Source: Bacillota bacterium (GTDB lineage: Bacteria > Bacillota > Clostridia > Ch29). Taken from it: a DNA stretch of 64,000 bases. The stretch is taken from positions 1 to 64,000 of the forward strand of contig JABVCK010000028.1 of assembly GCA_013540605.1 (NCBI GenBank), given 5' to 3'. Shown piece after piece: positions 3,287 to 32,551 of this stretch; positions within the stretch are counted from its first letter, which is position 1, and the number at the start of each line of letters is the position of its first letter. The notes below the pieces were generated by a model that saw only the letters and a program-made list of their open reading frames with translations, was not told where the DNA came from and searched no databases. The translations under genes and the position numbers were made by a program.

Positions 3287-3323
3287 ATTATCATCTCCAG
3301 ACAAATCTACTATAGTTTATTTT

Positions 3324-3390: not shown

Positions 3391-3399
3391 CTTTATAAA

Positions 3400-4119: not shown

Positions 4120-4129
4120 AATATTCACC

Positions 4130-5005: not shown

Positions 5006-5006
5006 G

Positions 5007-6944: not shown

Positions 6945-6965
6945 ATTCTCACCTTCTCCCTTGCC

Positions 6966-7697
6966 TCATACCACTTCTACACACCCAAATCCCTGGCTGT
7001 TTTTGCTGCCCAGCCCTGCGTCCACTGCCATCTGAAGCAGTTCCCTTGGCCCGGTCAGCTCCATCTTACCCGAATACCCCTTTATCACTGTATCTTTGTA
7101 GCTCATTACATGCAGTTTAACCTCCCCTAGTTTCCTCACTTTCACCTCCCCTTCCGGTGCTTCTATCCCGTAAAATGCCTGGTGCTTTTTTCGCAGGTTG
7201 TTTTCTACCAGCCTATCATAGTCCGGTTCACCGGGCTGGAAGTAACAAGTGTATTTTCTGCCATCAGGCCGAAGAAAAGTGCTGTATACAACAATTGGAG
7301 ACAGAGTTCTTATTCTTACCTGCGGCTTGTCCACTTCATACTGCTGAACAATCATTTTTTCAGCCTCTACTCTATTGTTTCCAAAATTAAGCCATCTTTT
7401 AGTAAGCATGCCATTGGCAACCGAATTACAGAACTCATTGACCGGAGAAGATATTGTCATCCTTATATCATCACAAAACCTAATGCTGCCCTTATTCTTA
7501 TCTATTTCATACCTCCCCGTCAACCTGGAAAAAGCAAATAGCTTAAAACTTCGCCCCCCACTAGTAAAACCTTTTTCATGTAAGAAAGTGGCCAAATCCG
7601 GCTCTATCGCATTATATATTACACCTTGAAGGATATGGTTATATTGCTGTGGGATTTCCAGACCTTCATTGGGCTTAAAATGTAAAGTAATATGCAT
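6966..7697 (-). CDS. cas6: CRISPR RNA endoribonuclease Cas6
   Basis: Cas6 cuts the pre-crRNA within each repeat, leaving the 8-nt 5' handle, here predicted as ATTGAAAC. The 243-residue protein has two RAMP folds and ends with the diagnostic glycine-rich loop GLGSKNSQGFGCVEVV. A histidine at about residue 21 (QQYNHILQG) is in the position of the catalytic His of many Cas6 proteins (inference). The ATG at 7697 follows AGGGGG. It is the only cas6 in the window, so it probably serves both the type I-B and the type III-A complexes. Confidence 0.95.
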   Translation of the reverse strand: MHITLHFKPNEGLEIPQQYNHILQGVIYNAIEPDLATFLHEKGFTSGGRSFKLFAFSRLTGRYEIDKNKGSIRFCDDIRMTISSPVNEFCNSVANGMLTKRWLNFGNNRVEAEKMIVQQYEVDKPQVRIRTLSPIVVYSTFLRPDGRKYTCYFQPGEPDYDRLVENNLRKKHQAFYGIEAPEGEVKVRKLGEVKLHVMSYKDTVIKGYSGKMELTGPRELLQMAVDAGLGSKNSQGFGCVEVV

Positions 7698-10697: not shown

Positions 10698-10714
10698 TTA
10701 CAGACATCCCCTTT

Positions 10715-11782
10715 TCATTCTTTAACGGTAACGGTTACCCAGCCCAAAACACTTTGGATTATGCCATTCCTTAACACTACCACCCTTGTGCTTGGAAATG
10801 GACTATAATTTCCATAACCTGCTGCACTTCTGATTTCCATCATCTGGCTAGGTGTAAATAGAGAAGCTATTGAATTGTCGTAGAAGGTTTTACCGGACCC
10901 CAGCCGCAGGACAGCACCCTCCCCTGTATCCTTTAACTGCAGCGCTTTGTTATATAGTCCTGTATAAAGGTTAATCAAAGCATCAAGCTTCTCGTGCTTT
11001 TTCTGGCATAGTTCGTCAATTTCCCTGTTTAGCTGTTCTGTGTAGAAGTTATTGACCTCGACTAATACCTCTTTTTCCCCGCCCTCATATAGATATTCGA
11101 ATCTATCCGCTAAAGAATGATATTTGGCTTTTGCCGTACAGGCAAGGTGAAATTCAAGAACAGTTCCTCCAGGTATTGCCTCTTTTATCACCGGAATTGT
11201 TGCTTTCCCGGTACTGATGTTTATCCTGCAAGTTTTCACAACCTCAATATTGTCATAGGGCAAAGGCAAGGTGTCCGATATATGAAGAAATTTAAGTACA
11301 TCTTTATCTATTGAACCAAACTCATCTTCTCCAACGTATGTTTTCTTGTCAGTAGTGGCTGTGCAGCCCTTATCAAGCAGATGTCTATAAAGTAGAGCAG
11401 TACGAAAGGCGCCTTTTATACTACTTCCGGGTACATATGGCCTATTGGACGTAGATATAGCTCTATGGATTTCTTCGTTTTTAAGCTCATCGCTAGCTCC
11501 TGTAATACGGCTTGAATAATCTTCAATATTAATCCCGTTTTCTGCTAAAAAGTCTTTAAGTTTATACTTATCCACTGTGTTTTTTTCTGTCTGAATATTG
11601 ACGATATTTATAAACCTATCCATTAATTCTTCTGCATTCTCTTTGCTATATATATAGCTTTGAAGTTTATTATGATCTATGTAATATACCCTGCCATTTT
11701 CGTATATATAGTCGCTATAAGGGGATAAAATCTCACCGTTTCCAATATGCAGTGGGGTCTCGGCATTCATTATCAACTTCAT
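10715..11782 (-). CDS. csm5: Type III-A Csm complex subunit Csm5
   Basis: Csm5 is the RAMP subunit that caps the 3' end of the crRNA in the Csm complex and takes part in crRNA maturation. The 355-residue protein begins AETPLHIGNGEILSPYSDYI, typical of Csm5, and contains the RAMP phrase YVPGSSIKGAFRTALLYR. The C-terminal glycine-rich segment VLRLGSGKTFYDNS is also typical. Its ATG directly follows the csm4 stop codon (TAGATG), indicating translational coupling. No obvious defects. Confidence 0.93.
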   Translation of the reverse strand: MKLIMNAETPLHIGNGEILSPYSDYIYENGRVYYIDHNKLQSYIYSKENAEELMDRFINIVNIQTEKNTVDKYKLKDFLAENGINIEDYSSRITGASDELKNEEIHRAISTSNRPYVPGSSIKGAFRTALLYRHLLDKGCTATTDKKTYVGEDEFGSIDKDVLKFLHISDTLPLPYDNIEVVKTCRINISTGKATIPVIKEAIPGGTVLEFHLACTAKAKYHSLADRFEYLYEGGEKEVLVEVNNFYTEQLNREIDELCQKKHEKLDALINLYTGLYNKALQLKDTGEGAVLRLGSGKTFYDNSIASLFTPSQMMEIRSAAGYGNYSPFPSTRVVVLRNGIIQSVLGWVTVTVKE

Positions 11783-12859
11783 CTATCTCCCACCCCCAAA
11801 CCCTATTAAGAACGACTTGCCGCAGAAATATATCCTGTGTTTGTCGAACCCTTGGGGTGTCAGTTCTATTATTTGACCAGAAACCGGCATATTAAAAATA
11901 CTCCCTTCCTTTAGTACCCTTATACTTCTTTTACGGAAGAGTTGTCGCCCTCCAGAAAAAATATATCCGTTCTTCTTATGTAATTCGTAGTTCATAATGC
12001 CGGCTGTTTCCTCTTGACCTGGGTAACAGGCAGAAAGGCTGACATAATATCTCCCATTATCTCGAAAATTATCAAACTGCTTTTCATCTGATTCCTCAAT
12101 ATGAGTAAAATATCCCATACCCATGCTCCTCATCCCGCCGATGCCCTCATCTGCCAAAAGACTTATTGAAGCCTTCAATTCTTTTGTCAAAGAACCATCA
12201 AACAGGAAATACATAAAAGGCTCAATTCTATAGCTATTAACTTCCGCGCGGCAGACTTCTAAATATTCTTGATAGTAAAAAACATTAGATTTATTACTAT
12301 TTCTGTTTATTGCAACCCGTGGCCGGGAGTTTTGTTTTATAAATTTTAACCCTTCTAGTTCTTCTACATTTACATCCAAGCCATGTAATTCCTCCTTCAT
12401 ATAGCCAAACTTGACATCTATTGTTGGAAGCCCCAACAGGTCAAAGGCAAAATTCCTTTTATCTTCATCCCATGAAGCCAGAAGTCTATCAAACGCGCCA
12501 GCAGATATGTACTCAATCCTCTTAATGCGTTTGGCCGCCCATATTTCGCTGCCTTCCATATTATTGAGGGAAATGCCACAAATCGGTTTAGGCAAAAAGT
12601 ATAAAGTTTTTTTCAGCTCCCCTGTGTCTCTTTCAATAATGTCTAATCCGTAATATATAGACGTAAACTTAGCTTCACCATTTTCGAAAATTGAGACAGT
12701 GTTATCCACAACATCACTTCCATATAACAATACCATATTGTTTATTAAGGCTGAAAACAACTGGTCCGATGAAAAATGGTCCGCTAGCTCATCCCGGCTA
12801 TCCCCAAAATGATACTTTCCCCTATCATTAATAAACAGCTTAAATGTTTTCATATCCAT
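11783..12859 (-). CDS. csm4: Type III-A Csm complex subunit Csm4
   Basis: Csm4 is the Cas5-like subunit that holds the crRNA 5' handle and contacts Cas10. The opening FKLFINDRGKYHFGDS, followed by HFSSDQLFSALINN, is typical of Csm4, and GIGGMRSMGMGYF is the expected RAMP glycine loop. The start is ambiguous: ATG codons occur at 12859 and 12853 and a TTG at 12868. All of them overlap the end of csm3, whose stop is at 12840-12842. The overlap implies coupled translation. At about 360 residues it is slightly longer than many Csm4 proteins. Confidence 0.92.
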   Translation of the reverse strand: MDMKTFKLFINDRGKYHFGDSRDELADHFSSDQLFSALINNMVLLYGSDVVDNTVSIFENGEAKFTSIYYGLDIIERDTGELKKTLYFLPKPICGISLNNMEGSEIWAAKRIKRIEYISAGAFDRLLASWDEDKRNFAFDLLGLPTIDVKFGYMKEELHGLDVNVEELEGLKFIKQNSRPRVAINRNSNKSNVFYYQEYLEVCRAEVNSYRIEPFMYFLFDGSLTKELKASISLLADEGIGGMRSMGMGYFTHIEESDEKQFDNFRDNGRYYVSLSACYPGQEETAGIMNYELHKKNGYIFSGGRQLFRKRSIRVLKEGSIFNMPVSGQIIELTPQGFDKHRIYFCGKSFLIGFGGGR

Positions 12860-13607
12860 CAATTCCAATCAGCTCAGAAATTTTTTGTTTTATCTGGCTA
12901 AAGCTAAGCCTGTCCAAGGTACCGTTGTAAACCTCCCTATCCTTGTTGTCACTCTCATAATCTTCAGTAGTCTTTATACTTATGCTTAAATCGTCGAATT
13001 TTATTCTTCCATACCCCCTTGAACCATTCCCTCCAAGATAATCATCCTCAAGCAGCCGCAGTGCCACAATAACATCTCCAAACCGTTCAATATCCTCGTT
13101 CTGAAGTATGTTAAATACAAGGTACAAATCAAATCTGGCACCGGCCGGAACCCTTTCCTGTTGTCTTGGATGGTCTGCCTTTGAGATTTTCCTGTCTATT
13201 ACATTCTCCCATTTGCTCTCGGTATAAGTAAGTTCAAGCTCAGCAAACATACCTTTCTTTTCTTCCATATCTTTTTTTGTTTCCCCATCAAGCATAGCAT
13301 CTCGGACATAAACTCTTGTTGGCCCCACCCTTAATTCTTCGTCTTCATTCCCCGCGCCTTTTCCAAAAATTGCGCATATATTGCAGTTGCCGCAGTTGCA
13401 TACCCTGTCTTTGCCTTTTTTCTTCTCTAACAAGCTCCGCATTTTACCTTTCAATGACGACCCCGGGATAAATGGTACCCCTTCGGAATCCTTTATTACG
13501 TTATTATCTATACCACCTATCACAACGTCAGTTTTTGAACCTCCTATTGCCAATCCCGTGATAACTTTAATCTTCCCTTTTATGAAAAGCTTAGCTACTA
13601 GTTTCAT
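12840..13607 (-). CDS. csm3: Type III-A Csm complex backbone RNase Csm3
   Basis: Csm3 forms the backbone and cleaves target RNA at 6-nt intervals. The 255-residue protein shows IGGIDNNVIKD, whose Asp (residue 34) matches the family's catalytic Asp, then FIPGSSLKGKMRSLLE and a four-cysteine cluster CNCGNCNIC that probably binds zinc. The C-terminal glycine loop LGGNGSRGYGRIKF is intact. The ATG lies about 12 bases from AAGGAG, a little far. Target RNA cleavage should be functional. Confidence 0.95.
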   Translation of the reverse strand: MKLVAKLFIKGKIKVITGLAIGGSKTDVVIGGIDNNVIKDSEGVPFIPGSSLKGKMRSLLEKKKGKDRVCNCGNCNICAIFGKGAGNEDEELRVGPTRVYVRDAMLDGETKKDMEEKKGMFAELELTYTESKWENVIDRKISKADHPRQQERVPAGARFDLYLVFNILQNEDIERFGDVIVALRLLEDDYLGGNGSRGYGRIKFDDLSISIKTTEDYESDNKDREVYNGTLDRLSFSQIKQKISELIGIDGYENI

Positions 13608-13633
13608 GTATAACCATGACTCCTTTCTATAAA

Positions 13634-14206
13634 TTATTCGTCATTACCAACGAATTTTCGGTAAGCCACTATAGCTTCCATGAACTTTTTGAAATTATCC
13701 ATCTGATCTTCGCTCTCAGGCACCATTTCTCTAACTAGATGGTCCAATATGTCCATGAACTCTTTCAGCTCTAACTTCTTTTCATTTCTTCCGGCAGTGT
13801 AGGCAAACTGTGGCCTTAGCATTTTAAGCTCTTTCGCATTTTTAGCATTCATCACCCTCGAATAAACCTTTCTAATCATTGAAGTTGTAACCTTACCGTA
13901 TCTCAGTTTTTCTGCATATTTTCTGGCATTATCGCAAAATTCATCATAATCAATTTCTTTCAGCCTGAGGACATTTTCTTTAAAATATGTGACTATTTCG
14001 TCTTCTTCTATTTTTACATCTACAGCGTGGGGTCCCCTTCTATCCTGAACCACCCTAAATATAACCCTGTCTCCCTTCCGTGGAGCACTGCCGCTAAAGC
14101 TGTCCGTGCCCATATGAATCTTTGAATCCTCGCCATCTTTTTTGATACGTCCATAGCCTTTTTTATCGTCATAAAACTCAACTGTACCTATGAATTGTTT
14201 AGACAT
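13634..14206 (-). CDS. csm2: Csm2 with N-terminal cold-shock domain fusion
   Basis: Csm2 is the small helical subunit of the Csm complex and is usually about 120-150 residues. This one has 190. Residues 5-66 look like a cold-shock domain: GTVEFYDDKKGYGRIKK (RNP1-like KGYGRI), SKIHMG at the RNP2 position, then RKGDRVIFRVVQDRRGPHA. Residues 68-190 are Csm2: ENVLRLKEIDYDEFCDNARKYA, TTSMIRKVYSRV, LRPQFAYTAGR and a last helix ending AIVAYRKFVG. The chain is continuous and the only good ribosome site (GGAGG) precedes the cold-shock part, so this is a genuine fusion rather than two genes. An added RNA/ssDNA-binding module in the complex is inferred. Confidence 0.9.
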   Translation of the reverse strand: MSKQFIGTVEFYDDKKGYGRIKKDGEDSKIHMGTDSFSGSAPRKGDRVIFRVVQDRRGPHAVDVKIEEDEIVTYFKENVLRLKEIDYDEFCDNARKYAEKLRYGKVTTSMIRKVYSRVMNAKNAKELKMLRPQFAYTAGRNEKKLELKEFMDILDHLVREMVPESEDQMDNFKKFMEAIVAYRKFVGNDE

Positions 14207-14209
14207 ACG

Positions 14210-16597
14210 TTAATCCTCCTCCCGGAATTTTCTGGTGGACAATTCAGCCCAGCGAATTGCAGCGGGTATAATCATTATGTTACTTATTTCACTGCATTCA
14301 GCTTTATTCATAAGGTTGTGAATTACTATCTTCCTATACTCCTCAATAAGCTTTTCTGCATAGTTTTTCTTATTCTTTACATCATCGGCCTTAACATCCC
14401 TCAAGTAATACGCAAGTCTCCAGAATCTAATGCTGTCAAATTTACCTTTGGTCGAATCCTTTAATATACGCTTGAAGCCTAAGGTACTCTTACTAACCTT
14501 ATAAAGAAGGCCCCTGCCATACCCCCCATCTGTCATCATTCTTTCCAACAGATTCTTTATTCTCTCAATGTACTTGAACTCTTCCCAATTAAATACCTCT
14601 CCTAAGAACGAAACTTTATTCTTTACCGGCATACCACTGTCCAGCATCTCTGAGCGCTTAGCGTCTTCAAGAGCTTCTTCTGTAATGCTGGCAGCCCGTG
14701 TAAGCGGATAGTGCGGTTTGAAGATGCCTATTCCGGCTGAAAATGTTAATTTACTGTTGTGACAGGTGTACTCCCTGAATTTTTCATAGAATTTTCCAGC
14801 AAACTCGAAGATCGCATCCCATCCTCCTAATACGAAAGTATCATCGCCACCAGAGAACACTACATAAAGCTGATTATTCCAGTGGTTTTCGACGATAATC
14901 TTATTTATGTATCCTTCAAAATAAAGGCTGAGCATTCTGCTCAATGCAGTGATTCTTGAAATGGATTTATTGTTCGGGAAACCCAAGGCAAAAATGGCTC
15001 CCAGATTATCCACATCAAGCTTTAGAAATCCCAGTTTCTTGTCTCCTATTCCATCCTTAACACTGGTACTGGACAGCTCATCAAAGGTTGTGATTTCACC
15101 ATTTGCATTAACAGGGAGGTTATAAGCCCCAAACTTAAAGCCATCACACCCTTCCTGGATAAAACTAGTAGAATTCAACATATACCATAGGGAATCGCTA
15201 TTATCATACTCCGGTCTGTAAGTTAAAAATTCTACCCTGTAACCAAACATAGCCAGCACATCATTATATGAATTAACGGCAGACGTGGTCAAATGTTGGG
15301 TTGGTACAAACCGGCAGTACATGGCATCTCTGAGCTGACTAGTGAGATCGATGAAACTGGCGCAGAGCGAACATATCTCAATCTCTCCATTATGGATTTC
15401 CAGTTTTCTTCGGCCACTTCCCGTTCCACAAACCTTGCAGATACCCTTTTCTCCTTCTCCTTTATCCAGAGGACCGAAGATTTTCTTATAATTTTCTGCA
15501 AGCCCCAGTTCACTCCATTTTTTCTGTTTGAGATCATTCACCTTTTTCTTAACGCTGTCCCAAAGATCTGAAAAGTTATCAAAATTCTTTGGCGATAAGA
15601 AAACACTTCCAAGGGCTAGATAGATGTCCCCTTCATGAACATTTAGGAGGGTACTTAAAATTTCTTTTTTTGCCTTTTCAAGCTCCGCTACTTTACACGC
15701 AGGCGCCAACAGATAAAAATTCCCTCCGCCACAATATAGTAGATTGGCCTTCTTTAAGTCCAGTGCGTCAAGAAGATAGTGGGCTATTGTTTCAGCCAAA
15801 ATACTGAGGTAGACTGAACGCCCTTTCAGACTCTTGGCAGCTCCTTTTGAAGGTATATTAAATATGAATTCTTGTATCCCGGACATATCGCCCTTAATCA
15901 ACATAAACTGTTCTTTATCGCTTTTAGTCTTTCGCTCAAGATCATTGGCAGAAAGTTGACCTTTCTGATACTGGTCATAAAGACACAATGCGATAGCAGC
16001 AGTTGTCTTAGAATGGTCAAACAAGGAAATGTCTGGAATATGGTGCCATGTTTGAGCAGGTACGCTCCATAAATATTTCTCCAGTAGATAATATAGCTGT
16101 GTCTCATTATTTGTTTTGCCAAGTTCGTCCAGAAAGCCATCCACAGCCTTCTTATATGCTGCTTCATTAACAACAGTATGGCTTCGAGGGAAAATATTGT
16201 TTAGAGCCAGAGGTTTTAGTTCGTAACTATACACATTGTTTGTATTTTGAGAGAATAATAAAGAAAATATAGATTGAAGTGGAGTACGGTTATATTTGTC
16301 AGAATTGGTTTCATCCTTCTCTCGCTCAGATGACGAAAGCCAATCTGCCAGCTGGATAATCCTTTGCCAGTCGTTAGTAGGTTGATGATGATATAATACA
16401 GCATCTGTTACTTTATCTGAATATTTTTCAAATAAGGGGTGTTCTTTTCTAAGTGTGGATAACAGTTGAGCTGAATATGCCGGATGCCCTTTCTCAACTT
16501 TTTTCAGATTATCATCTACCTTAAGACTCTTAGCCCTTTCAATAAATTTCCCAATATCATGAAGAAGAGCTGCCATATATATCTCATCTCGTCTCAA
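14210..16597 (-). CDS. cas10: Type III-A Cas10/Csm1: HD nuclease and cyclic oligoadenylate synthase
   Basis: The large subunit of the Csm complex. On target RNA binding it cuts ssDNA and makes cyclic oligoadenylates. The N-terminal HD domain has ALLHDIGKFIER (His13-Asp14). A zinc-ribbon region has CKVCGTGSG and, after a spacer, CSLCASF. The palm domain carries intact FSGGDDTFVLGG (GGDD at residues 583-586), so cyclase activity is expected, matching the CARF effector Csx1 in the same operon. The start is TTG at 16597 behind GGGTGAT; an internal ATG seven codons later is the alternative. It is the first gene of the type III operon and ends just before csm2. Confidence 0.95.
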   Translation of the reverse strand: MRRDEIYMAALLHDIGKFIERAKSLKVDDNLKKVEKGHPAYSAQLLSTLRKEHPLFEKYSDKVTDAVLYHHQPTNDWQRIIQLADWLSSSEREKDETNSDKYNRTPLQSIFSLLFSQNTNNVYSYELKPLALNNIFPRSHTVVNEAAYKKAVDGFLDELGKTNNETQLYYLLEKYLWSVPAQTWHHIPDISLFDHSKTTAAIALCLYDQYQKGQLSANDLERKTKSDKEQFMLIKGDMSGIQEFIFNIPSKGAAKSLKGRSVYLSILAETIAHYLLDALDLKKANLLYCGGGNFYLLAPACKVAELEKAKKEILSTLLNVHEGDIYLALGSVFLSPKNFDNFSDLWDSVKKKVNDLKQKKWSELGLAENYKKIFGPLDKGEGEKGICKVCGTGSGRRKLEIHNGEIEICSLCASFIDLTSQLRDAMYCRFVPTQHLTTSAVNSYNDVLAMFGYRVEFLTYRPEYDNSDSLWYMLNSTSFIQEGCDGFKFGAYNLPVNANGEITTFDELSSTSVKDGIGDKKLGFLKLDVDNLGAIFALGFPNNKSISRITALSRMLSLYFEGYINKIIVENHWNNQLYVVFSGGDDTFVLGGWDAIFEFAGKFYEKFREYTCHNSKLTFSAGIGIFKPHYPLTRAASITEEALEDAKRSEMLDSGMPVKNKVSFLGEVFNWEEFKYIERIKNLLERMMTDGGYGRGLLYKVSKSTLGFKRILKDSTKGKFDSIRFWRLAYYLRDVKADDVKNKKNYAEKLIEEYRKIVIHNLMNKAECSEISNIMIIPAAIRWAELSTRKFREED

Positions 16598-17020
16598 GTT
16601 TCTATATCACCCTTTCTTTGCCATTTTATATATTATTTCTACAATATGGCTATTTTCCCTTCATAGTGTCTAAAAAGTTATATATGGTTCTTCCTATATA
16701 CCAATTATTTCTACATCAGCGGGTATAACGTTACCAACTAAATACAATTCTAATTTCAATCCCTCATAGGCACGTTAAAATCTTTTACACGGTCTGACTT
16801 TTTATAATTCTTTTTATAATTCTTCATTGAACGGGTTTCATCAAATATTTAATCAGAATTTTTGGCTGACTTGCGTATGTAGTTATGTTTATGTCTTTAT
16901 CAAGTTTCTCTGTGGCTTTATTGACTTTTAAGCTACCTAAGTTTCGTACAAACAGATCAACTATAATTGGTCAATTAAGGAAACACAACTGAATATAATT
17001 CGGCTGTAACAGTGCTTCTG
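16598..17020. other. AT-rich promoter region before the type III operon
   Basis: About 420 bases with no credible gene. It should hold the promoter of the leftward csm operon. It contains the solitary CRISPR-like repeat at 16753-16782 and, just to its right, two tandem copies of an AATTCTTTTTAT-like unit (about 16801-16822). The far right part is probably the end of the transposon remnant that follows. Confidence 0.5.
16753..16782 (-). CRISPR. Solitary divergent CRISPR repeat
   Basis: Thirty bases match the array repeat at 25 of 30 positions and in the same orientation as the array. On the minus strand it reads GATTTTAACGTGCC then TATGAGGGATTGAAAT, so its last eight bases differ from the array handle ATTGAAAC only at the final position. 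It lies about 150 bases upstream of the cas10 start. No second repeat is visible on either side. It may be a cas-regulating mini-CRISPR of the CreR kind, or an old trailer-end repeat cut off from the array by the insertion sequences. Confidence 0.7.
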
Positions 17021-18806: not shown

Positions 18807-19685
18807 GATACTAAAAGTCTTCAAGAAGTGATGTAGGGTGCTGACGTCACTAATGTTTCCAGGCAAACGATGGTAATAAACGGGTAACTGACTTTTCTGG
18901 CCAAAGAGTAACGCTAGATTGATCTGTCGGAGTTTATCGCCATCCCGATTGTAGCCGTACTTGATGTATTCATTTAGTTCTCCATAGGAAGAAACGGAGG
19001 TGATATCATAACACAAATAGTCGTTTTCTAGTACACTTTCTCCCCACTTGGAAAAGAAGGTTTGTTGCCCGTCAATATTTAAGGACTGAAGGATTTCACT
19101 GATACGTTGACTTGTTAATGTTTTGTTGAATGGATGGGCATGACTTTTACTCCAAGCTTCACAGTGACTTAAGGAGCCGCCGTGCATAGCAAGATAGTAG
19201 GCCATACACAGAATTTGCTGGTACACTTTCGGGAAACAACTCTTTAATACTTTGTCTAGTTCCAGTTCAGCAGTAATACTGTCCAGCAACAATGTCGGTC
19301 CTATGATCTTTGCAGTGGCGCTCACAGCCGGATCACGAACAGCAGCTTGTTCGGGATTTAATCGTTTGGATGGAATAAATTCCCCTGTCTTGGGGTCAAG
19401 CTTCCCGATACAGACTTGCTTGTTGCGCGGTTGCTTCTTTTCTTTATCCCATACAGAGGTTGCTTCATAGATGTAAGTAACACCTGTTTTCTTATTAACT
19501 TGATGTACACGATAAGCCATGTTAAACCTCCCTCTCATGGTTATAATTATAACTATGTTTCAGGAGAATTACAACACAAAATATTGCTGTATACAGCTTA
19601 TTTGCAGACTTTTTTGCGACATAGTTATAAAGATTGCGGGAAGTTAGATAAGTATCGAATTATAAGCCGGATCACACATTGCTTT

Positions 19686-22600
19686 GTTTCAATTCCTCAT
19701 AGGTAGGCTAAAATCCGGGTTTCGATATTCTTCTTTGCCTTCCAGAGCATGTTTCAATTCCTCATAGGTAGGCTAAAATCCTTATTCAACACAAAATATC
19801 TTTAGCAACTATAACAAGTTTCAATTCCTCATAGGTAGGCTAAAATCTACCAGGATATCAATTGACAAAGCAAGCGATGAGGAGTTTCAATTCCTCATAG
19901 GTAGGCTAAAATCCGCAGAAGAAGGTTGCTATCGTTGGATGAGTTGATGGTTTCAATTCCTCATAGGTAGGCTAAAATCGAACCCTTATTCCGCATCCGG
20001 AGCAGGCGCCCGTAGGTTTCAATTCCTCATAGGTAGGCTAAAATCCATCATAGACGGCCTGAACGCATGGCTGGAGGATTATGTTTCAATTCCTCATAGG
20101 TAGGCTAAAATCTTGTCACAGGTGAAAGGTATAGGTCCGACCCTAGGCTGGTTTCAATTCCTCATAGGTAGGCTAAAATCAAGGTGGTTGGGAAGTCGTA
20201 TTCGAAACCGACAGGGGTTTCAATTCCTCATAGGTAGGCTAAAATCACCCAGTACCAGGGTGAGCCTATTATTGTGCCTATTGGTTTCAATTCCTCATAG
20301 GTAGGCTAAAATCCTCAGGCTCTTTTTTAGGACTTGCAAAACAAAATTCAGTTTCAATTCCTCATAGGTAGGCTAAAATCCCTTTGCGACCTTTAGCAAT
20401 ATTTTTTTATGTTTTGAGTTTCAATTCCTCATAGGTAGGCTAAAATCGGCAGCAGATCCGGCTGATTGTCTCGGGGAAGGACAAGTTTCAATTCCTCATA
20501 GGTAGGCTAAAATCAGCCGCAAAAGGAGGTTGAACACGATGCCTAAAGCGAGTTTCAATTCCTCATAGGTAGGCTAAAATCAGCCGCAAAAGGAGGTTGA
20601 ACACGATGCCTAAAGCGAGTTTCAATTCCTCATAGGTAGGCTAAAATCCAGCAGACATACAGGGTGATGAATTCGTAAACAGTGGGTTTCAATTCCTCAT
20701 AGGTAGGCTAAAATCGTGAAGCGGTACTCGGATACGCTGCTGATATTTTTGCGTTTCAATTCCTCATAGGTAGGCTAAAATCTAACCAACTACATCAACG
20801 ATACCGGAAAGAAAAACGTGTTTCAATTCCTCATAGGTAGGCTAAAATCGGTGTTTTGACAGTTACTCCTGCTATTTTAAGCATTTATGTTTCAATTCCT
20901 CATAGGTAGGCTAAAATCAATATAAATACATATAAACATAAATACATATATAGAGTTTCAATTCCTCATAGGTAGGCTAAAATCAAATATATTATTCTGA
21001 TGCTATGCAATGGCTATATTAGTTTCAATTCCTCATAGGTAGGCTAAAATCAATCAATATAGAGATAGGTTTGCGTTAGCATATTGTGGTTTCAATTCCT
21101 CATAGGTAGGCTAAAATCGATGTAAACAATCCCATAAATTCATCAGACATAAAGTTTCAATTCCTCATAGGTAGGCTAAAATCTTAAAAAGATTAAAAGA
21201 GCAAAAACCACCATATTCAAGTTTCAATTCCTCATAGGTAGGCTAAAATCGTTGAACCCGACATTCAGCACATCTGTATACAACTATGTTTCAATTCCTC
21301 ATAGGTAGGCTAAAATCTTCTGCCGTGGCGACGATGACTATATCTACTTCCAGGGTTTCAATTCCTCATAGGTAGGCTAAAATCCACAGCTGCCGGTGTG
21401 GCCCTCTTCGCCATGGCAAGGTTTCAATTCCTCATAGGTAGGCTAAAATCCTCGGCGGGGCTGTGATATGTGTGGGGATATCGGCTAGTTTCAATTCCTC
21501 ATAGGTAGGCTAAAATCTGCACCGTGCATTCGGAAAAGCTGTTGCTGATGGATGTTTCAATTCCTCATAGGTAGGCTAAAATCGCCAAATCAATTTGGCG
21601 CAAATTTCTTTTATCTCTGTTTCAATTCCTCATAGGTAGGCTAAAATCTATAATATAATGATATAAATATGTAAAAGGAGTTGATGTTTCAATTCCTCAT
21701 AGGTAGGCTAAAATCTCTGCCTTTCTCATTTCGGACAAAGGTAAGCATTTCTTGTTTCAATTCCTCATAGGTAGGCTAAAATCATTCCCAAAGAGTTATT
21801 GTCATACCACCTCCTACCATGTTTCAATTCCTCATAGGTAGGCTAAAATCGCACCGGAGTATTATGATATGGTGGTAGGGAATTTAGGTTTCAATTCCTC
21901 ATAGGTAGGCTAAAATCTGCGGTTTTCCGCGATATGCCGGCTGCTTCAGCGGCGTTTCAATTCCTCATAGGTAGGCTAAAATCTCCTAAAATTGATTTTA
22001 ATGTTGAAAAGTTTGAACATGTTTCAATTCCTCATAGGTAGGCTAAAATCAAACATATTCGTTATTCGCTATTTTATATTCAGGTTTCAATTCCTCATAG
22101 GTAGGCTAAAATCAATCGAAAAGGAGTTAACTAAAGCAGCATATATATAGTTTCAATTCCTCATAGGTAGGCTAAAATCCATGAAAAAGGTCTATCAGAC
22201 AATGATTTGAAACTTAGTTTCAATTCCTCATAGGTAGGCTAAAATCCCGGGCTATCATCTATGAGCGGTATTTTGCGGTCCAAAGTTTCAATTCCTCATA
22301 GGTAGGCTAAAATCGCATAGAACTTGCTGAACTTATAACCAATCTAATCATGTTTCAATTCCTCATAGGTAGGCTAAAATCTTTACAAAGAGTACAGCAA
22401 AAATGAATTTTATTATTGTTTCAATTCCTCATAGGTAGGCTAAAATCCAGTATGGTTGTTTATGTCCACAAGTTTTAGGATTAGTTTCAATTCCTCATAG
22501 GTAGGCTAAAATCCCTGTTATTTTATATTTTTATTTTACCACATGTAATGTTTCAATTCCTCATAGGTAGGCTAAAATCCTAAATAGCTCATCATCTTCA

Positions 22601-25600
22601 CCCTTTCATGAGGAGGGTTTCAATTCCTCATAGGTAGGCTAAAATCTCCGATGATACCTAAAATTGCGAAAGGTATAGCGGCGTTTCAATTCCTCATAGG
22701 TAGGCTAAAATCGGGTAGCAAGCTGGGCTGGTCCTTTTTGGGATGGAGTGTTTCAATTCCTCATAGGTAGGCTAAAATCAATATTAAAACTGAAATACAA
22801 GAGCGCTGGAATACGCGTTTCAATTCCTCATAGGTAGGCTAAAATCCCTCCTTCGTGCAAGGCTGACGCGAAAGGAGGATTTTGTTTCAATTCCTCATAG
22901 GTAGGCTAAAATCGTTATTTCTCGGGCTCAGGTGTATCGGTTAGTTACGGGTTTCAATTCCTCATAGGTAGGCTAAAATCCCATCAGATTTGAAAAACAT
23001 GCTGTATTGAAGTGGTGTTTCAATTCCTCATAGGTAGGCTAAAATCCGAAAAAGTTGCTTAGACTGTTGGAAAAGAAAAAGTGGTTTCAATTCCTCATAG
23101 GTAGGCTAAAATCTCCAACTCCAGATGGTCCAGCCTTTAATCCAATCGAGTTTCAATTCCTCATAGGTAGGCTAAAATCCTGTGTTCCAAGATAAGTTGA
23201 AACATCCATCTTTGGTTTCAATTCCTCATAGGTAGGCTAAAATCCAAAGGTTACCCCACTTTGGAATGGTGGAGGTACTGTGTTTCAATTCCTCATAGGT
23301 AGGCTAAAATCGATACAGTGAAACTGGTGCAACAACCGTTGAAATTGTGTTTCAATTCCTCATAGGTAGGCTAAAATCCATGACAGATTCACCAACAACC
23401 AGCCCAAGATGAACTGGTTTCAATTCCTCATAGGTAGGCTAAAATCCTGTTATTTCTTATAGGGGTGAAGAAAACTTTTTCGGGTTTCAATTCCTCATAG
23501 GTAGGCTAAAATCCAAAAATGATTGGTTGGAAAGAGATTGATGTTGTGTAGTTTCAATTCCTCATAGGTAGGCTAAAATCGTGGCTGGCGCAAGTTCATT
23601 GGCCGCGCCAAAACTAGGTTTCAATTCCTCATAGGTAGGCTAAAATCCCTCAGTCATAATCCTAATGGCCTTATCAGCTGGGATGTTTCAATTCCTCATA
23701 GGTAGGCTAAAATCCTCTTACTCTCGGTGGTCTCGGAATATGGACTCTTATGTTTCAATTCCTCATAGGTAGGCTAAAATCCATATCATCCCTGCGGCGT
23801 TCGCCGACAATGATTTCAGTTTCAATTCCTCATAGGTAGGCTAAAATCTTATTAAGTGCGGCCATGCGCGGCTTTGCATCTATCGGTTTCAATTCCTCAT
23901 AGGTAGGCTAAAATCATATGTAGTTACAACAGTCGTTAGCGATATGGCAGCTGTTTCAATTCCTCATAGGTAGGCTAAAATCTCCCAAGGCAGACTCTTC
24001 AGGACGCTTATGTTCATGGTTTCAATTCCTCATAGGTAGGCTAAAATCCTCTTACTCTCGGTGGTCTCGGAATATGGACTCTTATGTTTCAATTCCTCAT
24101 AGGTAGGCTAAAATCCTAGATCCAATATTTCTTCATTATCAAGGATTTTGTCGTTTCAATTCCTCATAGGTAGGCTAAAATCTCGTAAAGTTGTTCTAGG
24201 TACGCCTATTTCTTTTGCAAGTTTCAATTCCTCATAGGTAGGCTAAAATCGCGAACAAGAACCTGCAGTCATTTGACGAAGTGCATGTTTCAATTCCTCA
24301 TAGGTAGGCTAAAATCTCAGTAATTGGTGAAAGTTTAATTGGAACAACCTTAGTTTCAATTCCTCATAGGTAGGCTAAAATCAGTTGCCTTTGGAATTTA
24401 TGCTGGTGTTGCAAACCTGTTTCAATTCCTCATAGGTAGGCTAAAATCCCATTTGCCTTTGCCAGTGTAAACCCTGCATTTTTAGTTTCAATTCCTCATA
24501 GGTAGGCTAAAATCGGTGAGGACATTTTTATATAATATTATGGGTAATGAGTTTCAATTCCTCATAGGTAGGCTAAAATCCCAAGATTTCTGTTTCAGAT
24601 TATCAATACCCAAGTGGTTTCAATTCCTCATAGGTAGGCTAAAATCCTAGATCCAATATTTCTTCATTATCAAGGATTTTGTCGTTTCAATTCCTCATAG
24701 GTAGGCTAAAATCTCGTAAAGTTGTTCTAGGTACGCCTATTTCTTTTGCAAGTTTCAATTCCTCATAGGTAGGCTAAAATCGCGAACAAGAACCTGCAGT
24801 CATTTGACGAAGTGCATGTTTCAATTCCTCATAGGTAGGCTAAAATCCAGCGCACACTAAAGCAAATAGATGACACATACAAAGTGTTTCAATTCCTCAT
24901 AGGTAGGCTAAAATCTATCAAAACCAATGTGCAGGAGAAATGGGAAGCTCTGTTTCAATTCCTCATAGGTAGGCTAAAATCTACCAGCCCAATCAATTAC
25001 ATCCTGCCAAATTGCCGAGTTTCAATTCCTCATAGGTAGGCTAAAATCGGGTCGCCTATTTCATTTTCATCGTAGTTTATACCCTTGTTTCAATTCCTCA
25101 TAGGTAGGCTAAAATCCTGTAGTCATAACTCTTCCCATCCTTCGTAAATACGGGTTTCAATTCCTCATAGGTAGGCTAAAATCGAGGAAAAACCGACTGA
25201 AAACGTCGTCAAACCCAGCAAGTTTCAATTCCTCATAGGTAGGCTAAAATCTTAAGGCCTACAGTTATGGACAATATAGAGGAAATTGTTTCAATTCCTC
25301 ATAGGTAGGCTAAAATCTGCAATTGGATGGCGATGAAGTTGCATCATATAAATTGGTTTCAATTCCTCATAGGTAGGCTAAAATCGCGTACATGCTCTAC
25401 ACCTCCAAAAGTAGTGATAGGTTTCAATTCCTCATAGGTAGGCTAAAATCAACGATGGGTCATTTAAACCGCTTTCTAGTGATAGGTTTCAATTCCTCAT
25501 AGGTAGGCTAAAATCTCGGCCATTGAGGATGAGAATCGGGCTTTTGGGCTAAGTTTCAATTCCTCATAGGTAGGCTAAAATCTTACCTGAGGAGTTACTA

Positions 25601-28600
25601 CAAAAACGTGCAAGAGAGGAGTTTCAATTCCTCATAGGTAGGCTAAAATCCAGGGGTTACTCCATCCTGCCAATTTGTTTTTGTAGTTTCAATTCCTCAT
25701 AGGTAGGCTAAAATCATGATATGCAGCTATGGCAGAAGATATTGTGGTACCTGTTTCAATTCCTCATAGGTAGGCTAAAATCCAAAAGAAAAAATACTTG
25801 ATTCACGTCTTGTCAAGTAGTTTCAATTCCTCATAGGTAGGCTAAAATCCCAGTTTTAATAAATTAAGCCTTGCCTGATATTCAGGTTTCAATTCCTCAT
25901 AGGTAGGCTAAAATCCCCAAAAGAGAGCAAACCTTTCTGGTCTGGTAGTCGGTTTCAATTCCTCATAGGTAGGCTAAAATCCAGAAAGCCTGTTTGCAGT
26001 GTTTTTATTGACTGCACCGTTTCAATTCCTCATAGGTAGGCTAAAATCCCACCTTTTTGCCCAAGTAAAAAAGCCCCGAAGGGCTGTTTCAATTCCTCAT
26101 AGGTAGGCTAAAATCCTTCTTCCTCAGTATAGTAGCCTGCCTCCTTTTTCTGTTTCAATTCCTCATAGGTAGGCTAAAATCCCAAGAAGAGCTTTGTGCG
26201 GAAGGTGCAAAAGTTCTTGTTTCAATTCCTCATAGGTAGGCTAAAATCCGGGAGGCGGCCGATGCGCTGGAGGAATTAAGCCTGAGTTTCAATTCCTCAT
26301 AGGTAGGCTAAAATCCTGGGACGCTCAGAAATGCAGAGGTATAGCTCCCTTGTTTCAATTCCTCATAGGTAGGCTAAAATCTGAAAGTATATGACGAGGA
26401 CCCGAAGCAAAAGACCATGTTTCAATTCCTCATAGGTAGGCTAAAATCTAATATTTGTGTCTCGTCAATCTCCGACTGGCTGCCGGTTTCAATTCCTCAT
26501 AGGTAGGCTAAAATCCGTCCGGGTCCCGTGAAGATACCGCATGTTGGATGAAGTTTCAATTCCTCATAGGTAGGCTAAAATCCTGCCAACGGGTCCCGGC
26601 CTTGCATATGCAGTGGGGTTTCAATTCCTCATAGGTAGGCTAAAATCGTATATCCGCAGCCCTTTCCTGTCGCTGTAGCAACAGTTTCAATTCCTCATAG
26701 GTAGGCTAAAATCGTACATCTGGAGCCTGCGATACCAGATAGGCAGCAAGGTTTCAATTCCTCATAGGTAGGCTAAAATCGACAGCAGACCATACATAAC
26801 ATCCGGGCCCATGCAAGTTTCAATTCCTCATAGGTAGGCTAAAATCCACTGAACATATACAGCCATGCTCTGCGGTCAGCTGAGTTTCAATTCCTCATAG
26901 GTAGGCTAAAATCAACTGTGAGGTCAATAAGAAAGGAGAGTATATATGGGTTTCAATTCCTCATAGGTAGGCTAAAATCCTTTAGATGGCCCATTGCCGG
27001 CAGTATCCTGAGCTTGTTTCAATTCCTCATAGGTAGGCTAAAATCGAGAATGGGAGCAGGTTGATGATGAAGATTTCCCGGGTTTCAATTCCTCATAGGT
27101 AGGCTAAAATCATCGTGGCAAACCATTTTTCTTCCTCCATGTGATGTAGTTTCAATTCCTCATAGGTAGGCTAAAATCAACAACTAAGCCACCTAAAATG
27201 GTCATCTGCTGCACGGTTTCAATTCCTCATAGGTAGGCTAAAATCTAATATTTGTGTCTCGTCAATCTCCGACTGGCTGCCGGTTTCAATTCCTCATAGG
27301 TAGGCTAAAATCCTGCCGATTGTCCCATGTCATTTATTGCATCTACTATGTTTCAATTCCTCATAGGTAGGCTAAAATCTTGGATACGGTACGGAAAACA
27401 ATCCACCCGTTCCAGGTTTCAATTCCTCATAGGTAGGCTAAAATCTCTAAGTATCTGGTAGGATTAGTGCCATCAGACTCGTTTCAATTCCTCATAGGTA
27501 GGCTAAAATCCTGCCGGAAGGTGTTATAGAATTCCGTTGCCCAATCTCGTTTCAATTCCTCATAGGTAGGCTAAAATCGGTGTTCGTGAGATATAAGGCA
27601 AGCCACTACATCCTTGTTTCAATTCCTCATAGGTAGGCTAAAATCTATAGCGGTGGTGTGAGATTTCTCATAGATAGTGTGGGTTTCAATTCCTCATAGG
27701 TAGGCTAAAATCAAGCGATTATTATTACCTGCTGCCCAATGATTGCCCGGGTTTCAATTCCTCATAGGTAGGCTAAAATCGTCTTCTGCCGCATTAAATC
27801 CCAGAACCTTTGCTATGTTTCAATTCCTCATAGGTAGGCTAAAATCGCAGCGGAGGAAGTCTACCGTAGCAACGAGCCTATCAGTTTCAATTCCTCATAG
27901 GTAGGCTAAAATCGGGGCTTCATACCATTGATGGCTGGGTGATTATTCAAGTTTCAATTCCTCATAGGTAGGCTAAAATCTTGTGGGTATGCCACGGACC
28001 CCAAGTATGCAGAGAAGTGTTTCAATTCCTCATAGGTAGGCTAAAATCTCCATATACGCTGTGTAGAAATACTGGAATAAAACTGTTTCAATTCCTCATA
28101 GGTAGGCTAAAATCAGACTGCACCTGGAAGATGATTGAGGACAGCGAACTGGTTTCAATTCCTCATAGGTAGGCTAAAATCCAACTATCCAGACCCGGAG
28201 AGAAAAGGAGAGACGTTGTTTCAATTCCTCATAGGTAGGCTAAAATCAAACAACTGGTGGTTACTTGAAAGTTTGTGATACTGAGTTTCAATTCCTCATA
28301 GGTAGGCTAAAATCTGGGAGCACAAGGGAAGTTCCAACACAGCGACAAGAGTTTCAATTCCTCATAGGTAGGCTAAAATCAGTGTTTGTGATGCAGGATT
28401 TCATTTCTGCAAACAAGGTTTCAATTCCTCATAGGTAGGCTAAAATCTTTTCTTTCATCCACTTACAGCATTCAGGGGATACTTGTTTCAATTCCTCATA
28501 GGTAGGCTAAAATCGAGAATGGGAGCAGGTTGATGATGAAGATTTCCCGGGTTTCAATTCCTCATAGGTAGGCTAAAATCTTTTCAGTATGATTTTCAAT

Positions 28601-30373
28601 TTCAGTATCATCACTGGTTTCAATTCCTCATAGGTAGGCTAAAATCAAATCCTGTTAGCGAGGATTTCAACCGCATAGAAGGGTTTCAATTCCTCATAGG
28701 TAGGCTAAAATCTATGCCACCCCTACATTTTTTCTTCGCCTTCAATTTTGTTTCAATTCCTCATAGGTAGGCTAAAATCGCCGTAGAGATGGCCCGGGCA
28801 AGCTCAAAGTAACTTGTTTCAATTCCTCATAGGTAGGCTAAAATCACATCTGGAGCCTGCGATACCAGATAGGCAGCAAGGTTTCAATTCCTCATAGGTA
28901 GGCTAAAATCCCTGACACCAAAGATTGAGTGGTATGCAGTGGGCGAGTTTCAATTCCTCATAGGTAGGCTAAAATCCATAACGTCAAATTGGGGACAGTT
29001 TGGGGACAAAATAGTTTCAATTCCTCATAGGTAGGCTAAAATCGGCAGAAGTTGAGACGCCCAGTCCGGAGAAAAAGGGTTTCAATTCCTCATAGGTAGG
29101 CTAAAATCATTCGCTTATCCTTGTCCTTTAGCACCTTTTTTGGTAGTTTCAATTCCTCATAGGTAGGCTAAAATCTCCTGACACCAAAGATTGAGTGGTA
29201 TGCAGTGGGCGAGTTTCAATTCCTCATAGGTAGGCTAAAATCTACACAATGAGAAGCGCCCTCATAGGTTTGACCGGTGTTTCAATTCCTCATAGGTAGG
29301 CTAAAATCATATGCGGTGAATGCAGCGAAAATTACGAAAAGTAGTTTCAATTCCTCATAGGTAGGCTAAAATCTACGAAGGTGATATAGTTTACGACCAT
29401 CATAATGAGTTTCAATTCCTCATAGGTAGGCTAAAATCCTTGTTTGTCATGTATAGATGAATGGTTGGATGAAATGTTTCAATTCCTCATAGGTAGGCTA
29501 AAATCCGTCGGGGTCCTGTTGTGATACCGCTTCATCATGGCTGTTTCAATTCCTCATAGGTAGGCTAAAATCGAGCCGGCGCTGGACTTGGAGGACTTGG
29601 AATTAGCGGTTTCAATTCCTCATAGGTAGGCTAAAATCCTGTTGCAAAGTCCGGTATTTCCTTTACCAGTATTAAGTTTCAATTCCTCATAGGTAGGCTA
29701 AAATCCTCAATGCTCTTCCTCCCCCAAGTTAACTCTTTTTTAGTTTCAATTCCTCATAGGTAGGCTAAAATCCCCTATGGATTTTAAAAAGTAGTATAGG
29801 GTTATACTGTGTTTCAATTCCTCATAGGTAGGCTAAAATCGGGCTCCGCATAGTGAATACGCCTTCAATGTAGCCATGTTTCAATTCCTCATAGGTAGGC
29901 TAAAATCCGGTAGATGAGGATACCGGAGAAAAGTATGGTTGGGGGTTTCAATTCCTCATAGGTAGGCTAAAATCCAACATTGCAGCAGTGCTGGTTGCGT
30001 ATGCCGCCGAGTTTCAATTCCTCATAGGTAGGCTAAAATCATTGCAAAGGGACAGCTGCGAATTGTGCTTTTCCCGGTTTCAATTCCTCATAGGTAGGCT
30101 AAAATCTGATGCCGATTGTGAGTATATTCGGTGGGGGTGTCGGGTTTCAATTCCTCATAGGTAGGCTAAAATCTCATGGGCTGTAGTTGGGTATTCAAGT
30201 TTCTTTTCAGTTTCAATTCCTCATAGGTAGGCTAAAATCTAATAAATTGGCAAAACAGCATTTGCCGAGGGGCTAAGTTTCAATTCCTCATAGGTAGGCT
30301 AAAATCTGGTATTTTCGGTTGCGTACTCTTTGCCCAGGTCGTCGTTTCAATTCCTCATAGGTAGGCTAAAATC
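19686..30373 (-). CRISPR. Large CRISPR array: about 161 repeats and 160 spacers
   Basis: The 30-nt repeat on the plus strand begins GTTTCAATTCC and ends GGCTAAAATC; all copies I read are identical. Spacers are about 35-38 nt and the mean period is 66.6 bases. I counted 161 repeats by hand (error of one or two possible). The minus strand is the transcribed one: its repeat ends ATTGAAAC, the usual Cas6-generated handle, and an AT-rich leader with a promoter lies at the right end beside cas2. New spacers should therefore be at the 30.3 kb end. Several spacers are repeated, including a three-spacer block (24116-24286 and 24647-24817). The trailer repeat shows no decay and the IS1634-type element starts 55 bases beyond it. 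Confidence 0.99.
26066..26085 (-). terminator. Intrinsic-terminator-like sequence carried by a spacer
   Basis: Within the spacer at 26049-26085 the minus strand reads AGCCC-UUCG-GGGCU followed by a run of U. This is a 5-bp stem closed by a very stable UUCG loop plus a U tract, oriented with array transcription. It probably came from a terminator in the captured phage or plasmid. Whether it stops pre-crRNA transcription is untested, but about 95 older spacers lie downstream of it. Confidence 0.5.
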
Positions 30374-30493
30374 CCATTTCACCCTCTATTTTACTCGCTT
30401 TTTATTAATTCTTCAATCATTTAAATACTCCTTTTGGTTAAACACGTTTTTTTTATATGCATTGTATTTCTTAGCATTTTACCGAATCAAAAA
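30374..30493 (-). promoter_or_regulatory. CRISPR leader with array promoter
   Basis: A 120-base AT-rich leader between the first repeat and the cas2 terminator hairpin. On the minus strand TTGATT (30490-30485) and TACAAT (30466-30461) are separated by 18 bases, a good promoter pair directed into the array. The leader also contains a Shine-Dalgarno-like AAAGGAG followed by ATG and nine codons (30420-30391, reading MIEELIKSE), which is probably chance but notable just before the first repeat. Confidence 0.75.
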
Positions 30494-30541
30494 ATGTCGT
30501 CGCCCTCCAGCGGTTTTTACGCTACTAGGGGTCGACGACAT
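30489..30541 (-). terminator. Terminator hairpin after cas2
   Basis: Arms ATGTCGTCG-CCC (30494-30505) and GGGG-TCGACGACAT (30528-30541) pair with one bulge, with a small inner AGCG/CGCT stem. On the minus strand the structure is followed by a T run, so it probably ends cas4-cas1-cas2 transcription. The T run overlaps the -35 region of the array promoter. Confidence 0.7.
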
Positions 30542-30560
30542 AAAATCTATACAGATAACG

Positions 30561-30824
30561 CTATAGGAACATTTCTTCCCCGCCTTTTTTTACTCCCATT
30601 ATTTCAACCTCTGAATATTTGGTGGTCCTGAAGGTGTAAAAAATCACCGAATCCTCGTCCTCATTGATGACTTTTTTTAGCTCCATTTTGAGCTTTTTAA
30701 AGTTGGAATCGGAAATATCACCTTCCAGCACAGAGTTCTGTACCCAATACAAATACTTCCGCGCCCTTTTCAGCACCTTTCCTACCCTTTTCTCCCCCAC
30801 ATCATAAACAAGAATCACAAACAT
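30561..30824 (-). CDS. cas2: CRISPR adaptation protein Cas2
   Basis: The 87-residue partner of Cas1 in spacer integration. It starts MFVILVYDVGEKRVGKVLK, with the ferredoxin-fold first strand and conserved Asp (YDV), and continues ARKYLYWVQNSVLEGDIS, the usual Cas2 helix and second strand. The C-terminal part has SVIFYTFRTTKY. It ends 20 bases before the terminator hairpin that borders the leader and starts 23 bases after cas1. Normal length and intact. Confidence 0.96.
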   Translation of the reverse strand: MFVILVYDVGEKRVGKVLKRARKYLYWVQNSVLEGDISDSNFKKLKMELKKVINEDEDSVIFYTFRTTKYSEVEIMGVKKGGEEMFL

Positions 30825-30847
30825 AGCTCAGTTCCCCCATCCATTGA

Positions 30848-31840
30848 TCACCATCTCGAAACAAAGGGTTCAAAATCCTCTTCGCCGATTAGATGCTTCT
30901 CAAGTTTATAGAGCTCCATTCTGATAAGTCTCCTGTAAGATACTTCTCTTCCTAGTTTTCTGTGCTTAATTGTGGTTTTAAGCTTTTTGTCAAATTCTTC
31001 GACAAATGTTTTTCTTCCCTTTTCTTTCAACACTATACCGCCCATTTCTCTGTCGAAATCATTTTCATTCAACATCCTTTTTCCGATCAGAGTAAATATT
31101 ACCCTGTCGACAATTATTGGTTTAAATATTTCTGCAATATCAAGATTTAGAGTAAACCGCCGGAAATTAGTTGCATGCAGGAATCCTATGCGAGGGTCGA
31201 GATGTGTCTTGTAAATCTCTCCCAACACCAAAGTGTACAGCATAGAGTTGCCAAAGCTTATCAAAGCATTCAACTGATTCTTAGGCGGCCTCTTAGTTCT
31301 ACTGTCAAAAACAAATTCCGTATCTTCTAAGATAATATCGAAGCTCCTGTAATAATAATCTCTTATGTTTCCTTCTATCCCCATGAGCTCCGAAATGCTG
31401 CGGCATTCTTCCACACGGCCTTCAAGGTTGTCTATCGCTAATTCAATCTCCGATATATCCCTACCCCTATTTGAATAATACTTAATCACATTAGTTATGT
31501 TGCCAATACTTCCCGCGATGATTCTCTTCGCTATATCCATTCTTAGTTCTTCGGACAGATAGTGTTCCGCCTGTTTTAAGGTCATATAACCCGAATTCAT
31601 ATGTTCCCGCGGGTAAAAAGACCCTGTATAATACCCATAATAGTTGAAGAAATGAAGAATTATCTCCTTTTGCGCTATTAGCTCAAGGAACTTTTTATTT
31701 AAGCTGGTTTCACCAAAAACAAATATGTCGCTTACATCCTCTACCGGTATGAACTTTCTTCCTGCCTCCGATTCAAAGCACAGAGTGTTGTCTTTCCTCT
31801 TAAACTCGCCATCGTTAAAGACATAAATTGTTTTTTTCAT
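30848..31840 (-). CDS. cas1: CRISPR integrase Cas1
   Basis: The 330-residue integrase that inserts new spacers at the leader end. The C-terminal helical domain has all expected catalytic regions: the Glu in ISELMGIEGNIRDYYYRSF, and the His and Asp in FLHATNFRRFTLNLDIAEIF. It opens KKTIYVFNDGEFKRKDNTL, typical of the Cas1b branch found with I-B systems. It ends 23 bases before cas2 and begins 10 bases after cas4, so the three form one operon. Appears fully functional. Confidence 0.97.
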   Translation of the reverse strand: MKKTIYVFNDGEFKRKDNTLCFESEAGRKFIPVEDVSDIFVFGETSLNKKFLELIAQKEIILHFFNYYGYYTGSFYPREHMNSGYMTLKQAEHYLSEELRMDIAKRIIAGSIGNITNVIKYYSNRGRDISEIELAIDNLEGRVEECRSISELMGIEGNIRDYYYRSFDIILEDTEFVFDSRTKRPPKNQLNALISFGNSMLYTLVLGEIYKTHLDPRIGFLHATNFRRFTLNLDIAEIFKPIIVDRVIFTLIGKRMLNENDFDREMGGIVLKEKGRKTFVEEFDKKLKTTIKHRKLGREVSYRRLIRMELYKLEKHLIGEEDFEPFVSRW

Positions 31841-31850
31841 AGGTGACCCC

Positions 31851-32357
31851 CTAACTCCAACAGAATTCTCTGTATCCGCAATTGCTGCAAAACCGTGACT
31901 TCTCCACCTTCGGAGGTTTCTGCCTGTAAATTATATCAAGAATTGCCTCTCCTGCAGAAGCCAGTTCATCTCTTAATTCATCTGTCAGTATTACTTCTTC
32001 TCTTTTTTTCTCCCCGGGAAACATAAGCAGCCCAACAGCGTCTATTCCTTTATTCTTTAGTTCCAACAGGTAATATGCCAACTGCATCCTAGCGCTAGCT
32101 TCAAACTTTGAGCTCTTTTTCACTTCTCCAATTATTACTTGTCCGTCCACTTTCTTCAGGACGTCAAATTTCAAATTTCCTACTGAAATTTCTTTTTTGT
32201 CTCTTTGGTATGCATTTTCCTGTATGAAACGCCCCAGGTCAATATTGGGATTATCCTGGTCCGGACCTATATTGTGCGCCATAAGCCATACTTCCCGTTT
32301 GCAGATGTAATAGTACCATATAAGAGTACCGTTTACTTTAAGTTCTGTGTCTTCCAT
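31851..32357 (-). CDS. cas4: CRISPR adaptation exonuclease Cas4
   Basis: A RecB-fold nuclease that trims prespacers and sets PAM orientation. One Cys near the start (YYICKREVW) and three near the end (CSNCGYREFC) can hold a 4Fe-4S cluster. The nuclease core shows IIGEVKKSSKFE and later AYYLLELKNKGI. I start it at the ATG at 32357, nearest to GGGTGAT; GTG codons at 32366 and 32360 are alternatives. First gene of the adaptation operon. The presence of Cas4 fits I-B adaptation and defined spacer orientation. Confidence 0.95.
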   Translation of the reverse strand: MEDTELKVNGTLIWYYYICKREVWLMAHNIGPDQDNPNIDLGRFIQENAYQRDKKEISVGNLKFDVLKKVDGQVIIGEVKKSSKFEASARMQLAYYLLELKNKGIDAVGLLMFPGEKKREEVILTDELRDELASAGEAILDIIYRQKPPKVEKSRFCSNCGYREFCWS

Positions 32358-32551
32358 CACTATCACCCACTTTTATAGATGTGGTATTTATACATTTCTC
32401 CAGCGCGTATTAATTTCCTCCTTTTTTGGCTAATTGTGTCAAACAATCGTCGACATCGCCGTATCTTTTTATATTCTACGGAATCCCTCAACCTTCTACT
32501 GCCTTTTCTGTGTTATGATAATATATATGACTTCTATGGAGGGTTGCTCAA

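Follow-up and report, generated by a model that had tools for sequence, protein, structure and literature searches.

A spacer resembling an intrinsic terminator faces the direction of transcription in a 160-spacer Bacillota CRISPR array

Background

Both Rho-dependent termination and boxA antitermination have been described for bacterial CRISPR arrays (Stringer et al. 2020, eLife, as cited in PMC10883916). Rho-independent terminators have been described upstream of type II-C arrays, where they insulate the array, according to PMC12080349. Transcription signals can also lie within spacers themselves, as in the Sulfolobales, for which PMC10883916 treats cryptic promoters in spacers together with Cbp1-Cren7.

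The array described here contains a spacer with the anatomy of an intrinsic terminator, oriented with array transcription. It shares with the Rho- and boxA-regulated arrays the common problem of premature termination inside a long array, but its putative stop is intrinsic and spacer-encoded, and leaders of its kind show no boxA enrichment. The type II-C terminators are likewise intrinsic terminators adjoining CRISPR repeats, whereas the element reported here lies inside the array, in a spacer, and its effect on transcription is predicted. Sulfolobales spacers also burden the array with unwanted signals for transcription, although these are promoters, accompanied by an archaeal repeat-binding protein, rather than a terminator. 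In the literature searched, with partial coverage, we found no description of a terminator function for a spacer.

Results

The window, a 64,000-nt stretch of contig JABVCK010000028.1 from a Bacillota bacterium of the class Clostridia, contains a CRISPR array on the minus strand (19686-30373) in which 160 spacers, 81 of them 37 nt long, alternate with 161 identical 30-nt repeats. Seven spacer sequences are present twice, leaving 153 distinct ones. The seven comprise a three-spacer block duplicated identically (24116-24286 and 24647-24817) and four further pairs (20515/20582, 23715/24049, 26449/27246 and 27046/28515), all signs of within-array recombination. To the right lie a leader (30374-30560) and the adaptation genes cas2 (30561-30824; TIGR01573), cas1 of I-B type (30848-31840; TIGR03641) and cas4 (31851-32366; TIGR00372). 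To the left are transposase genes, then a type III-A csm operon (9357-16597) consisting of a TM1812-family gene, csm5, csm4, csm3, csm2 with a cold-shock domain and csm1/cas10, and a type I-B module (983-7697) with cas3, cas5, cas7, cas8b/Csh1 and cas6. The minus strand encodes all of these cas genes and is also the crRNA strand of the array. Read on that strand, the repeat ends in ATTGAAAC, which we take to be the usual 8-nt handle for this repeat group, and across our survey the handle rule agreed with the strand of the adjacent cas1 in 139 of the 142 arrays where both were readable. Minus-strand transcription from a leader on the right, as the sequence-only reading had assumed, is thus well supported, since the handle, the strand of cas4-cas1-cas2 and the conserved right-hand leader all agree.

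The spacer in question (26049-26085, minus strand, 37 nt) sits between identical repeats as number 65 of 160 counted from the leader, with 64 younger spacers on one side and 95 older ones on the other (19686-26048); the sequence-only reading had these counts right. Its minus-strand sequence is AGCCCTTCGGGGCTTTTTTACTTGGGCAAAAAGGTGG, and on the crRNA strand it contains AGCCC-UUCG-GGGCU-UUUUUA, confirming the hairpin and U run first noted and their terminator-like anatomy. As is typical of intrinsic terminators, a G+C-rich stem closed by a short, stable loop runs directly into a U-tract. The hairpin (26072-26085) has a predicted energy of -7.9 kcal/mol at 37 C, equalled by 6 of 200 shuffled sequences, and its short stem of 4-5 bp retains only -3.8 kcal/mol at 60 C. 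The U run (26067-26072) comprises six U after a 4-bp core stem, or five if the outer A-U pairs. Folding in the context of the repeats indicated that the end of the preceding repeat, AUUGAAAC, is able to pair with the U-tract and lengthen the stem.

The d'Aubenton-Carafa formula scores intrinsic terminators. Using our own implementation in this style, which combines hairpin and U-tract and misses bulged stems, we obtained a score of 29.5 for spacer 65, while the runner-up among the 320 spacer strands of the array scored 3.7. By the same measure, the terminator of a T-box leader identified by Rfam (49096-49122) scored 40.1, and three more sites outside the listed open reading frames, one of them 67 nt past a stop codon, scored 20-41. 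Spacer 65 therefore ranks by score with what are likely the window's native terminators. A loose consensus scan of positions 19000-31500 found 11 terminator-like sites against 11.2 +/- 3.6 expected, so it is the strength of this element, and not the presence of a hairpin, that is unusual. We conclude that spacer 65 is a real, strong terminator-like element in the sense direction, with termination itself being a prediction.

A self-origin of the spacer was considered and rejected, as the element is found nowhere else in the genome: its 19-mer occurs once in the window with up to three mismatches (0.01 expected by shuffling) and once in the whole genome with up to two.

We surveyed 150 arrays located beside relatives of Cas1 in the same class and phylum, the window's array included, which gave 7,166 distinct oriented spacers. 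Cas1 was searched for in 391 genomes of the class and 398 of the phylum, drawn evenly from larger groups; of the places listed (the window's own genome and one already-taken place excluded), 60 of 69 and 80 of 142 were used, mainly the best-scoring and with some at contig ends left out, plus 12 further loci. Identical spacers were counted once and those containing N were dropped. Eight arrays without a clear handle were oriented by the cas1 strand, and the handle was kept in three cases of conflict. At a score above 20, terminators lying entirely within spacers numbered 6 in the sense and 11 in the antisense direction, compared with means of 0.7 and 0.6 over ten dinucleotide shuffles. Spacers thus do carry real terminators, roughly tenfold over shuffles, an excess expected if spacers derive from mobile DNA. 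The six sense cases are spacer 65 of the window, two in L084 and one each in L152, L157 and L183, a rate of about 1 per 1,000 spacers in these Bacillota I-B/III arrays. For 160 spacers, the survey shuffles predict about 0.016 such cases; the other real arrays, with 5 in 7,013 distinct spacers (7,166 less 153), predict about 0.11, so that an array of this length has roughly a one-in-nine chance of holding one. A sense-terminator spacer is an uncommon yet recurrent accident of adaptation, arising at a low rate in long arrays.

Sense and antisense counts of spacer-internal terminators did not differ significantly (p=0.33), nor did the two orientations differ in distance from the leader. When the repeat was allowed to supply the stem or T-tract, 8 sense and 14 antisense cases scored above 20 (shuffle means 2.2 and 1.1); in this category sense cases are rarer than the shuffle ratio predicts (p=0.005), while a test of symmetric capture gave p=0.13, and such tests overall gave p=0.09-0.43. 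Selection purging sense terminators is possible, being suggested by the repeat-assisted category alone.

Capture from a phage or plasmid terminator, the origin first proposed for spacer 65, is its natural reading and holds up as a kind of event, given near matches in phages and the survey excess, but is putative for this spacer, whose protospacer was not found. A search of the whole array against phages returned no protospacer, and a distant-mode search of phages and plasmids with just the spacer returned only short hairpin-plus-T matches (best E 0.01). Neither a 21-mer nor a 24-letter degenerate pattern matched viral contigs, a 17-mer had three matches there with flanks unlike the spacer, and a 23-mer had no match in genome contigs. 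At E up to 10, 532 phage records contained sequence close to the hairpin and T-run. The best matches were in Paenibacillus larvae phages (27-28 of 32 bases), where the element is intergenic or follows closely on a stop codon. In phages Rani and Callan, an intergenic AGCCCTTCGGGGC stem-loop is followed by a T-run, as in spacer 65, which differs in sitting between repeats of a CRISPR array; the overall likeness is weak (E 0.01-0.5) and mostly confined to hairpin and T-run.

The window's leader contains two candidate promoters, each matching 9 of 12 consensus positions on the minus strand: TTGATT-18-TACAAT (30490-30461) and TTGAAG-17-TAAAAT (30416-30388), at respective distances of 87 and 14 nt from repeat 1. 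Overlapping a candidate -35, a short reading frame with a GGAG that resembles a ribosome-binding site runs leftwards from 30420. Across leaders with a 9-of-12 promoter, the -10 lay within 60 nt of repeat 1 in 38 of 89, compared with 15 of 57 shuffled; promoter-like pairs concentrated this close to repeat 1 would leave little leader RNA. The best boxA match in the window's leader was 7/9, and matches of at least 8/9 were not enriched in the surveyed leaders (8/67 sense versus 6/67 antisense). NusB is encoded. The suggestion that such a spacer would select for antitermination in the leader is accordingly not supported, boxA being unenriched and the leader RNA in this group probably short.

Discussion

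We consider it reasonably probable that spacer 65 is a captured mobile-element terminator which faces array transcription, terminates it in part, has called for no dedicated antitermination and has persisted. Under this proposal, the intrinsic (Rho-independent) terminator of a mobile element would have been acquired as an ordinary spacer, by chance in the sense orientation. RNA polymerase starting from the leader would transcribe 64 spacers, whereupon the AGCCC-UUCG-GGGCU hairpin would form and the enzyme would pause on the U-run. Judging from anatomy and score, some fraction of transcripts may end at spacer 65, which would then yield few full crRNAs; as its crRNA starts with a stable hairpin, it is probably a poor guide in any case. 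A polar effect on the 95 older spacers is plausible from the sequence. Polymerases that read through might still supply these spacers, perhaps aided by weak promoters arising where the repeat's TTGAAA meets a -10-like spacer sequence, in which case dedicated antitermination would not be needed. Terminator spacers may be retained because little depends on old, distal spacers and because their loss is slow.

Counting each distinct array spacer once, we found 13 in which a -10-like hexamer, matching in four or more of its six bases, lies 16-18 nt downstream of TTGAAA in the repeat. Seven of them are distal to spacer 65, and a restart of transcription beyond it from these promoter-spaced hexamers is conceivable. 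The repeat end provides a -35-like TTGAAA ahead of 5,393 survey spacers. Among these, all six bases of TATAAT occurred at promoter spacing in 18 cases versus 7.75 in shuffles, and at least four of six in 441 versus 415; internal promoters are not depleted relative to shuffles in this set.

If adaptation can insert a working stop, one bad spacer could disable all older memory in any long array. The survey supplies both a rate and the loci (the window, L084 twice, L152, L157 and L183) at which the effect could be measured.

The same sequence could also be a terminator look-alike that barely acts in place, leaving the polar effect nil or hidden in the gradient from leader to tail, and we give this a minor though appreciable share of the probability. 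The short stem, pairing between the U-tract and the repeat handle, elongation-favouring factors or a scarcity of transcription past 64 spacers might each be responsible. A stem of just 4-5 bp that is weak at high temperature fits this explanation, as do gradients in crRNA abundance, reported as leader-proximal in C. difficile (PMC3649979) and as declining within the 3' half of long arrays in Sulfolobales (PMC10883916). Against such gradients, a small step down at position 65 might go unnoticed. None of the 96 repeats distal to spacer 65 is mutated, which also favours this explanation, but repeat integrity has low power: every repeat is unmutated in 24 of the 58 survey arrays that have 50 or more, and intact distal repeats therefore say little about a polar effect. 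Against inactivity stands the score, which falls among those of likely native terminators in the window, T-box included.

Could the terminator instead have been kept by selection, confining expression to the youngest ~65 spacers and leaving new crRNAs undiluted? Premature termination has been suggested to be advantageous in long arrays (work cited in PMC10883916), and related modelling exists (PMC5749868). This would lead one to look for an excess of sense over antisense terminators or a common position from the leader; with 6 against 11 and no shared position, we regard it as very improbable. We attach equally little weight to chance, by which an ordinary coding spacer happens to form a hairpin and U-run: the shuffles do yield 0.7 sense cases per 7,166 spacers, but the observed 6 sense and 11 antisense cases exceed shuffles about tenfold, and the element is of a common phage terminator type. 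Partial termination by a captured terminator remains our preferred explanation.

The effector complex of the csm operon has a further feature. In the product of csm2 (13634-14206, minus strand), the Csm2 part (residues 86-188) is fused to a cold-shock domain at the N-terminus (Pfam CSD at residues 7-65, 31.1 bits against a cut-off of 27). Five more Bacillota Csm2 genes (L229-L233) share this architecture, with the domain above the cut-off in four and weak in L230, while those of L234, L235, L236 and L242 are without it. The cold-shock fold has members that melt terminator hairpins. One could imagine an array cut in two by the terminator, its young part expressed and its 95 older spacers a largely silent archive, with the cold-shock-domain Csm2 effector promoting read-through of its own array; we find this highly unlikely. 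Among the 33 genomes with Csm2 matches, from a sample that need not include every genome with a sense-terminator array, only that of the window has such an array, and no link between these arrays and the fusion was seen. Genome G008 was among those searched for Csm2 and gave no match.

The window's leader also contains a conserved hairpin, TGTCGTCGAC..TARYGYAAAAA..GTCGACGACA (30494-30539, minus strand), 121 nt before repeat 1 and followed by a T-run. An ungapped 46-nt match (threshold at least 25) was present in 81 of 138 leaders (L071-L222); where the handle is TTGAAA, 67 of 93 leaders had it. Its distance to repeat 1 was ~95-150 nt in most and ranged overall from 54 to 202 nt. The stem covaries, with pair 4-43 being C-G in 55 and T-A in 17 of 76 distinct sequences, and the loop is conserved. 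The hairpin is nearly palindromic, so the reverse strand scores too (69/138). An Rfam search of the leader returned nothing meaningful, the hairpin itself having no match. Extra arrays in the same stretch carry their own copies (three in L164, two in L183), indicating that the hairpin goes with leaders and not with cas2; it may serve integration or transcription. At the other end of the locus, 2.9 kb left of the array and between csm1 and the transposase genes, a lone degenerate repeat with five mismatches (16753-16782) is possibly a remnant left when insertions broke up a longer array.
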